Assembly: GCA_004524445.1 (NCBI GenBank)
Contig: SDNP01000002.1
Location: forward strand, 1 to 64,000
Direction: 5' to 3'
Source of the DNA: Candidatus Thorarchaeota archaeon
Lineage (GTDB): Archaea; Asgardarchaeota; Thorarchaeia; Thorarchaeales; Thorarchaeaceae
DNA length: 64,000 bases
Numbering within the stretch: the stretch's first letter is position 1; the number at the start of each line of letters is the position of its first letter. Positions 30,387 to 48,484 of the stretch are shown in pieces. The position numbers were made by a program, and so were the translations under genes. The notes beneath the pieces are model-generated. The model saw only the letters and a list, made by a program, of their open reading frames with translations. It did no database searches and was not told where the DNA came from.

Positions 30387-30446
30387 GAGACCTGATTTGG
30401 GTGTAATTCAGTTAGAATTATATCGGAATTTTCTACGATTAATGTT

Positions 30447-30574
30447 GCCGGGGTATCCAAGCGGCTACGGAGGCGGTCTCGAACCGATAAAAGACTTGCG
30501 AGATAACCGCTGTCTTCGGACGCATGGGTTCGAAAGTGCCCAGTGAATGAGTGCCGAATATCCCATCCCCGGCG
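30447..30574 (+). tRNA. tRNA-Ser (CGA) with two introns
   Basis: Acceptor GCCGGGG (30447-30453) pairs with CCCCGGC (30567-30573), discriminator G, encoded CCA at 30575-30577. The anticodon arm is GCGGT (30473-30477), CTCGAA, intron, A, ACCGC; anticodon CGA is 30480-30482. Intron 1 is 30484-30504 (21 nt) at position 37/38: CTCG pairs with CGAG, flanked by 3-nt bulges AAC and ATA. Intron 2 is 30535-30560 (26 nt) in the T loop at 59/60: TTCG pairs with CGAA, with bulges AAA and TAT. Both are strict bulge-helix-bulge sites. Removal gives a normal long-armed tRNA-Ser with T arm ATGGG TTCGAAT CCCAT. Confidence 0.93.
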
Positions 30575-30595
30575 CCATTGTATTATTCTTGCGGT

Positions 30596-30937: not shown

Positions 30938-30999
30938 GGGATCAGACCTACACATTGCTGAGTACAGGGAGATTCCTTAGCTTGAGTGTGGTAAATTGG

Positions 31000-31084
31000 T
31001 GCGGAGGGCGAGATTTGAACTCGCGTACTCCTACGAGACAGGATCCTAAGTCCTGCGCCTTTGGCCAAGCTTGGCAACCTCCGC
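31000..31084 (-). tRNA. tRNA-Leu (UAG)
   Basis: Minus-strand class II tRNA. Acceptor GCGGAGG pairs with CCTCCGC, discriminator A, encoded CCA at 30999-30997. Anticodon arm CAGGA CTTAGGA TCCTG gives anticodon TAG. The variable arm TGTCTCGTAGGAGTAC is long, and the T arm is GCGAG TTCAAAT CTCGC. No intron. Confidence 0.96.
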
Positions 31085-46025: not shown

Positions 46026-46607
46026 CTATGGAAAGGGTCTAACGAGAGCATTAGCCCTTAGTGCACCATGAAAGAGGATCTGAAATGCCTCCATTATTTT
46101 TTCCCCCCTAGTGGCTATGCTTTCTAAGACCGGGACTGAATCTGGTAGTTGAAGATATGAACGAAAGGTAGTTTCGTCGATGCTATCAGGCAAATCCTGC
46201 TTATTCAGACAGACAACTATCGGTATTGCTGAGTCTTCTTCATCCATCAAAGTGATGAGTTCGTTCCAGCTTGCTAAATTCTCATCTAACAGAATTCTTT
46301 GCGAGTCGGCTACAAATACAATTCCATCGGATCCTACTAAAACAACTTCTCGCGTAGAGCGATAGAAATCTTGTCCAGTTGCAGACCATATGTGAGCGTT
46401 AATTGTCCAACTACCCCCGAGAGAAAAGGGGATTGTCCCAAAGTCGCAGAACATCGTACGACCAACTGTGTTTTCTATTGATGTTAAGCGGTCAGCGAAA
46501 TTCAAACTTGAGAACAACCAACGTATTGATGTAGTCTTTCCACTCATGGCTGGACCGAAAAATACCAATTTTAATCCGACTGTTCGATTCCCATAATCTA
46601 CTATCAT
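46026..46607 (-). CDS. MglA-like small GTPase
   Basis: The 193-residue Ras-superfamily protein is closest in pattern to bacterial/archaeal MglA (COG2229). G1 is FFGPAMSGKTTSIRWLF near residue 14. G3 is WSATGQDFYRSTREVVL, where the usual DxxG aspartate is replaced, as in MglA (TxxGQ). DGIVFVADSQ and G4 NKQDLP are intact. In Myxococcus MglA controls polarity with the roadblock protein MglB, and a roadblock gene is two genes upstream here. No lipidation signal is seen, so membrane attachment would need a partner. ATG 46607 chosen; 46613 adds two residues. Confidence 0.88.
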   Translation of the reverse strand: MIVDYGNRTVGLKLVFFGPAMSGKTTSIRWLFSSLNFADRLTSIENTVGRTMFCDFGTIPFSLGGSWTINAHIWSATGQDFYRSTREVVLVGSDGIVFVADSQRILLDENLASWNELITLMDEEDSAIPIVVCLNKQDLPDSIDETTFRSYLQLPDSVPVLESIATRGEKIMEAFQILFHGALRANALVRPFP

Positions 46608-46619
46608 AAGCAATACCTC

Positions 46620-47540
46620 CTAGCTACCCCACATACTGTCAACCCATGCGCCCAGTCCAGAAAGAGAACCTCCTTTAATGCAGTCTGAGAAGTCCTCATG
46701 CCATTCAGAGCGGATGAATTGTATCAATTCATTCAGCCCTCCGTAATCCAAACCAATTGCCTCGTAGAGGTTTCGCTCTGTCAAGACAGTTGATGCTCCC
46801 AGTTCTCTAGCAAGTCGAATCCGTGATAGCAATGTCACTGCTCTGCGTGCCGCATAGACAAAGCCCTTTATTTCCTCTTCAAAGATATCTTGTGTGATTT
46901 TCTCGGCCTCATCATCTAACTGTAGAACCGCCTTCATCATTCCCTTTGGAAGCTCCAGGCCTCTCAGTGATTTCCCAAGTAGCCTCTTTATACGCTCCAA
47001 TGCCTGTTTCTTTCTTGTAAGGATTATATCAACGATTCTTCTCTCTACCTCAAGTTGGCTGTTAGATGGCTTGAGCAAAGAGAAATGGATTCTGGAAGGA
47101 GATTCAACTCGAAGTGTACCTACATTGCGAATAGATGCCCCGACTTTTTCTTCTATTTCACCTAGTTGGTATTCAGTCATCGCATGTGCATAGGAATCCT
47201 GTCTAATACAAGCGGCCATAATCCAACTAGCAAAATTCTGAATTCTTTCCAGTGCCAGAGAAATGGTAGAAGATAGACAACATACTATCGTTCTGGCGAC
47301 TTCATGGTCGTGTTTTTCCGCTTCTATTACTGATCTTATCTCATCAGAAGAGGTGAATTCTCGCCAAAATACTAGCTTGTGACGGTGCGGACTAAGCCGT
47401 GTCAAACTCTCTGTCAAATCGTCAAGTATCTCGCTATCTCTCCCTACAACCAATATTGGGATTCTATTGAGTACTGAGTTAAGCAAGGAGGGGAATTGGT
47501 CACCCAACAGCTCAATTAGTTTCAAAATGGAGTAGGTCAT
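46620..47540 (-). CDS. Uncharacterised protein between roadblock and GTPase genes
   Basis: 306 residues, no family recognised. The N-terminal 110 residues look alpha/beta, with the strand IPILVVGRDSEILDDLTESL. The rest is helical, with a basic segment LERIKRLLGKSLRGLELPKG and VYAARRAVTLLSRIRLAREL. There is no signal peptide or membrane span. The ATG overlaps the roadblock stop (ATGA), and the GTPase follows 12 bp later, so the three products are probably made together. It could be an effector, a regulator of the GTPase or a third complex subunit. Confidence 0.75.
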   Translation of the reverse strand: MTYSILKLIELLGDQFPSLLNSVLNRIPILVVGRDSEILDDLTESLTRLSPHRHKLVFWREFTSSDEIRSVIEAEKHDHEVARTIVCCLSSTISLALERIQNFASWIMAACIRQDSYAHAMTEYQLGEIEEKVGASIRNVGTLRVESPSRIHFSLLKPSNSQLEVERRIVDIILTRKKQALERIKRLLGKSLRGLELPKGMMKAVLQLDDEAEKITQDIFEEEIKGFVYAARRAVTLLSRIRLARELGASTVLTERNLYEAIGLDYGGLNELIQFIRSEWHEDFSDCIKGGSLSGLGAWVDSMWGS

Positions 47541-48484
47541 TTTTCTCGCCTCGCAACAACTAGATTGTTATCCGAGCCTCCCGAGAGAATTAAATCCCGG
47601 AGGTCATCTGGCAAACCAGGATCTGTTACAATGGCAGATTCCAAAATACGAGTCGTTTCTGAGATATAGTGTTTCAGCAAAAGCCGCATTAGTCCTAGCT
47701 TTTGGCTATCTCTTTTCACCCATAGGCTAAACACCCCATGGGGAACCGAATAGATAAAATGTCGAATACTATTAGTCTCACACAGAACATTTTGAAGCCG
47801 ATTATTCCTCAAAGTTGCAATGACTCGCTGAGAGGCATCATGCAATGCAAAGGACATTGCTGCCATACGATCGTTTGTGAATCCTTCAAGCGAGACTCTT
47901 ACTCCACCGCTTAGAGAGAGAAATACAGATTCAATAGCAGGGATGCTATCGTGGACTTGCCTCAAAACGGCTCTAAGAGACAATGCCTGTGACCTGTCAA
48001 GCTGGATTGCTGATCGTGAACTGGCATATTGTGTTTGTTTGCCTTCCGCAACTGAAAATCCACTGAGTACTTCATTTGTTTCCTCCTGATTGAAGGACCG
48101 GAGGGGGGGAAGACGCCCATCGAGATGTTGATGAAGGAGATACGCAATTCGAGACATGCTATCCCGCATCTCAATAAATAGAGCAGCCAGATTTACTCGA
48201 GGTGCCGTTGTAATCGCCAAAAAGAAATCCGGAGCATCAGGCAGGGATGCCAAAAACACCTTGGACGTGTTGGACTCCATCAGTAGGTACTGAAAATTTC
48301 CATGAATAAGCTTAGCAACACCAAATATTGCCGCTGTTGATGAGGCAACTGCAAAGACTTCATCCTTGCTAAACCACACGCCGGCACTTGCCACTGGGAG
48401 TCCGTCTTTTTGAATCAAGACGACATTCTCTACGCCAGATATCATCTTAATGATCTGCAAGGTGTCATTGAGATCGTTAGTCAA
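47537..48484 (-). CDS. Roadblock/LC7 domain protein, possibly tandem
   Basis: 315 residues. The N-terminal roadblock/LC7 domain (about 1-118) shows IIKMISGVENVVLIQKDGLP, VAKLIHGNFQYLLMESNTSK and VNLAALFIEMRDSMSRIAYL. A Gln/Ser-rich linker follows. A second domain (about 165-300) has the same secondary structure order, including VHDSIPAIESVFLSLSGGVR and FSLWVKRDSQKLGLMRLLLK, and I read it as a diverged roadblock copy. Roadblock proteins bind and regulate small GTPases; the MglA-like GTPase in the same operon is the likely partner. Confidence 0.78.
   Translation of the reverse strand: MTNDLNDTLQIIKMISGVENVVLIQKDGLPVASAGVWFSKDEVFAVASSTAAIFGVAKLIHGNFQYLLMESNTSKVFLASLPDAPDFFLAITTAPRVNLAALFIEMRDSMSRIAYLLHQHLDGRLPPLRSFNQEETNEVLSGFSVAEGKQTQYASSRSAIQLDRSQALSLRAVLRQVHDSIPAIESVFLSLSGGVRVSLEGFTNDRMAAMSFALHDASQRVIATLRNNRLQNVLCETNSIRHFIYSVPHGVFSLWVKRDSQKLGLMRLLLKHYISETTRILESAIVTDPGLPDDLRDLILSGGSDNNLVVARREK

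Follow-up and report, generated by a model that had tools for sequence, protein, structure and literature searches.

The gene for tRNA-Ser(CGA) at positions 30447-30574 (+) of the window (the whole 64,000-nt stretch of DNA analysed here, from the genome of an Asgard archaeon) is almost certainly a functional gene interrupted by two archaeal bulge-helix-bulge (BHB) introns, one at position 37/38 and the other in the T loop at 59/60; its transcript would be made, cut, religated and put to use as a spliced tRNA. The case for this reading comes from the anatomy of the gene, from intron-free relatives and from the presence in the same genome (G000; 2.79 Mb, a metagenome-type draft of 64 contigs) of genes for a splicing endonuclease and an RtcB ligase, all of which bear out the original prediction, made from the letters of the DNA, that the inserts are BHB introns.

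Anatomy of the gene and its two introns

Read base by base, the gene has a long variable arm and is divided into three exons (Table 1). Both introns are bounded by strict 3-4-3 BHB motifs, the central helices of which consist entirely of Watson-Crick pairs: CTCG (30478-30481) is paired to CGAG (30499-30502) at intron 1, with bulges AA^C and AT^A, and TTCG (30529-30532) to CGAA (30555-30558) at intron 2, with bulges AA^A and TA^T. The inserts of 21 and 26 nt originally proposed were matched letter for letter, and re-reading of the 3-nt bulges and 4-bp helices led to the same bases. When both inserts were cut out in silico, an 81-nt tRNA remained with all its stems and tRNA-Ser features intact, and ARAGORN called this 81-mer (plus CCA) as tRNA-Ser(cga), as would be expected if excision left a clean tRNA-Ser. 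Removal of the T-loop insert alone gave a tRNA-Ser(cga) with a 21-nt intron, and the unspliced gene was neither called by ARAGORN nor matched in Rfam, a case that illustrates how such genes escape standard tRNA finders.

Table 1. Coordinates of the tRNA-Ser(CGA) gene parts and of other features mentioned in the text (positions in the window)
Feature	Position	Strand	Remarks
Candidate TATA box TTATAT	30418..30423	+	29 nt 5' of the tRNA-Ser(CGA) gene
Exon 1, tRNA positions 1-37	30447..30483	+	anticodon CGA at 30480-30482
Intron 1, 21 nt at 37/38, CCGATAAAAGACTTGCGAGAT	30484..30504	+	strict BHB
Exon 2, tRNA positions 38-59	30505..30534	+	includes the long variable arm
Intron 2, 26 nt, T loop 59/60, AGTGCCCAGTGAATGAGTGCCGAATA	30535..30560	+	strict BHB
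Exon 3, tRNA positions 60-73	30561..30574	+	
CCA end	30575..30577	+	genome-encoded
Adjacent tRNA-Leu(UAG) gene	30997..31084		
Arf/Ras-like GTPase gene and nearby Roadblock/LC7-domain gene	46026..48484	-	

By letters alone, the borders of intron 2 could lie at 58/59 or at 59/60, with an identical product, and it is the BHB geometry that favours 59/60; our annotator scores BHBs, so that any border that can slide by one base is biased towards a BHB. With intron placement left unrestricted across the gene, the annotator recovered the identical two introns. How readily might such structures arise by chance? When the introns were shuffled, a strict 4-bp helix appeared at the needed site in 0.42% of cases for intron 1 and 0.65% for intron 2, giving a joint chance of about 3 in 100,000 even before the exact restoration of the tRNA is counted. 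The isolated T arm adopts the exact BHB in its minimum-energy fold (-10.1 kcal/mol; 7/200 shuffles were equally stable), and the BHB stem is present in the centroid structure of the isolated anticodon arm. Folded as a whole, the 128-nt precursor has a minimum-energy structure other than the cloverleaf bearing the BHBs.

We envisage a transcript whose anticodon arm and T arm would each form a BHB, every bulge being cut after its second nucleotide by an (alpha-beta)2 endonuclease; RtcB would then ligate the exons, and the freed 21-nt and 26-nt introns would probably be degraded, or circularised first. As both RNase P and tRNase Z depend on the T arm, splicing in the T loop probably takes place before, or alongside, the processing of the ends.

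Intron states among relatives and alternative explanations

A comparison was made of 34 tRNA-Ser(CGA) genes from 31 genomes of the family to which the window's genome belongs (G000 included), with two different copies in each of G027, G038 and G039. Six intron states were found: no intron (5/34 genes), an intron at 37/38 only (11), at 37/38 and 59/60 (three, in G000, G009 and G022), at 37/38 and 53/54 (three), in the T loop only, at 58/59 or 59/60 (five, in G010, G011, G021, G031 and G035), and at 53/54 only (seven); since the genomes are metagenome-type drafts, contaminated by a few percent, single assignments are fallible, but the pattern is robust. The mature exons are conserved and the introns differ in presence, length and sequence, although all four central-helix pairs were kept in 16 of 17 introns at 37/38, and all ten introns at 53/54 were 32 nt long. 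Particularly useful are the empty sites. G022, with an 18-nt intron at 37/38 and a 30-nt T-loop intron, can be set against intron-free G020, the exons being one column apart, and G029, with an 18-nt intron, against intron-free G032, the 81-nt exons being identical. At the level of sequence, these relatives strongly support the reading of the inserts as introns and the borders predicted for them.

Might the gene nevertheless be a decaying pseudogene, the UCG codons being read by tRNA-Ser(UGA)? The gene for this sister tRNA is intact and, as originally claimed, intron-free, and the tRNA could read UCG by wobble. However, decay would not be expected to keep two strict BHBs, nor does it fit with intact stems and tRNA-Ser features after excision, an encoded CCA end, and orthologues with conserved exons throughout the 31 genomes. 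We consider a pseudogene very improbable. A second, intact tRNA-Ser(CGA) gene, which with this copy silent had been named as grounds for rejecting the original prediction, was not found in the draft genome (90% complete, 5% contamination), although a draft of this kind may still lack one.

It is harder still to believe that the insert at 37/38 is the sole intron and that the T-loop insert is retained as an enlarged T loop, even though several relatives possess the 37/38 intron alone: such a loop would disrupt the elbow formed by the D loop and T loop, the insert has a strict BHB of its own, the T loop is of the standard 7 nt in relatives that lack it, and T-loop inserts (at 58/59 or 59/60) occur in eight genomes of the family, most of them with an identical central helix. 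An assembly error or chance insertion strains belief to the same degree. A draft in 64 contigs might harbour such a fault, but the same architecture is present in the independently assembled G009 and G022, and the rarity of paired strict helices among the shuffles tells against chance. A functional gene with two BHB introns is thus the reading that we adopt in what follows.

Intron turnover within this one family seems, from the sequence comparisons, to have been rapid, which was less expected. On a tree of endonuclease alpha subunits (25 genomes), the minimum numbers of changes were six for T-loop introns, seven for 37/38 and six for 53/54, but we rely only on comparisons between close relatives, because the backbone of this tree is weak. 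Conceivably, the introns are actively mobile in the family, being gained and lost in the T arm of one tRNA gene between close species, with reverse splicing, or recombination involving a cDNA copy of the spliced tRNA, as possible routes; we put this forward tentatively, and with more doubt than confidence.

The surroundings of the gene were also compared. TTATAT or TTAAAT elements are located 29-46 nt 5' of tRNA-Ser(CGA) in most relatives, and GlmM adjoins it in nearly all of those with sufficient flank (a DsrE-like ORF and S3ae do so in many), its strand relative to GlmM being reversed, compared with the window, in G009, G010, G021 and G040 (L049, L069, L070, L076). The adjacent tRNA-Leu(UAG) gene in the window is intron-free; in G007 (L196) an intron of 32 nt lies next to its variable arm, and there it is tRNA-Ser(CGA) that is intron-free, so the two neighbours show a reciprocal intron pattern in the window and G007.

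Host genome, its tRNA introns and its splicing machinery

The two-domain gelsolin encoded in the genome has 2DGel3 (7c2h) as its best solved match, with an E value of 1e-104. The corresponding values for the Heimdall and Loki versions are about 1e-27 and 1e-21. It is well supported that the genome is Asgard; its placement as Thorarchaeia-like is inferred from the origin of 2DGel3, a Thorarchaeota protein. The window also contains a gene for a small Arf/Ras-like GTPase near one for a Roadblock/LC7-domain protein, a eukaryote-like combination typical of Asgard genomes.

Introns were present in 23 of the 35 tRNA genes located in G000, a count from which further multi-intron tRNAs may be absent. 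Among them are introns of the D arm (tRNA-Arg(CCT), Arg(GCG), Thr(TGT), Val(CAC), Glu(CTC)), introns at 53/54 (Ala(CGC), Gly(CCC), Leu(GAG)) and, besides that of tRNA-Ser(CGA), another T-loop intron at 59/60, in tRNA-Lys(UUU). With introns in so many tRNA genes, and in the T loop of tRNA-Lys(UUU) as well, those of tRNA-Ser(CGA) are one case of a genome-wide habit and no isolated oddity. When G000 was searched for further 59/60 introns with the pattern GTTCRA...YGARNNTC, there were 118 matches, and the reversed control had 83; none of the 30 loci fetched had a pairing T stem, so the pattern alone is not usable. One of the matches listed, G000:C33:132249, is the T-loop intron of tRNA-Lys(UUU). 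Apparent introns of 9-11 nt in class II tRNAs were rejected as misread long variable arms, and a 12-nt minimum was set for annotation; one such artefact remains in the row for G005 and was disregarded.

Among 26 modelled introns of G000 (L019-L032, L154-L157), lengths peak at 30 nt (eight introns) and 32 nt (eight), with none of 31 nt, and in G007 and G009 most are 29-34 nt. The clustering at 30 and 32 nt could possibly be due to common descent or to a structural ruler. A motif, GGGGTCA, is common to introns of tRNA-Leu(UAA) and of tRNAs with a CAU anticodon in different genomes (L023, L027, L199, L226), and is perhaps a guide or a protein site.

What enzyme might remove these introns? G000 has one gene for RtcB ligase and two for endonuclease subunits: alpha on contig C49, and beta at 108 kb on the contig that holds the window. 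The alpha subunit aligns end to end with that of Aeropyrum pernix (3p1z; E = 7.5e-50), keeping the catalytic Tyr/His/Lys triad and having K-P-K in the place of A. pernix K44-P45-R46; beta matches the endonuclease family and lacks the His at the matching place. Two endonuclease matches were found in most of 47 family genomes, and the loop lysine equivalent to K44 is present in 43/43 alphas of the family and in 24/24 of a phylum set (22 genomes belonging to 19 further families; with two sequences shared between the sets, there are 65 different genomes in all), which was less expected. According to published work (PMC6379350; PMC12397907), residues of this Crenarchaea-specific loop confer broad substrate specificity. 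The sequences therefore support an (alpha-beta)2 endonuclease with a Crenarchaea-specific loop and predicted broad specificity, in keeping with the relaxed enzyme that had been expected and with the suggestion that the endonuclease class be looked at. A strict BHB needs no relaxed enzyme; relaxed specificity is implied because the 53/54 introns of G000 keep the central helix and have no outer helix.

Relation to known archaeal introns and significance

The positions 53/54, 56/57 and 59/60 are among the non-canonical ones listed in a 2014 review (PMC4090602). The introns described here resemble those of Thermoproteales, other Crenarchaeota and Nanoarchaeota in position, in their 3-4-3 BHBs, in the occurrence of several per gene and in the (alpha-beta)2 endonuclease, but the host is Asgard (Thorarchaeia-like), and here the introns change between close relatives. 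The original prediction had linked 59/60 mainly to Thermoproteales and some other lineages; such introns are indeed known there, but the link was too narrow, as intron-saturated tRNA sets have been published for the Asgard groups Atabeyarchaeia and Freyarchaeia, in which 92-95% of tRNA genes have introns, often non-canonical (PMC11291895, published in 2024). G000 is like these in being Asgard, with many non-canonical introns and more than one in a gene, and unlike them in the smaller share of its located tRNA genes that carry introns. Likewise, alpha can be aligned over its length with that of the A. pernix (alpha-beta)2 enzyme, triad included (3p1z, 3ajv; PMC6379350; PMC12397907), but the host is an Asgard archaeon and no crenarchaeon. 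Introns at 59/60, tRNAs with several introns and Asgard tRNA sets saturated with introns have thus already been published, and the added interest lies in fast intron turnover inside one family and in a loop lysine found across the phylum.

In a search that covered few subscription journals, we found no report of the Crenarchaea-specific loop in Asgard archaea, and the two papers on the loop are silent on Asgard. Its invariant lysine in Asgard alphas suggests that the loop is more ancient, or more widespread, than its name implies, and its spread is relevant to how the eukaryotic tRNA splicing enzyme arose. For the host, the present gene adds a Thorarchaeia-like Asgard genome to those with strict T-loop BHB introns. 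For the family, 34 orthologues in six intron states, with exact empty sites, make intron gain and loss measurable, and, if the introns are indeed mobile, this would be a natural system for catching the gain and loss of tRNA introns in the act.
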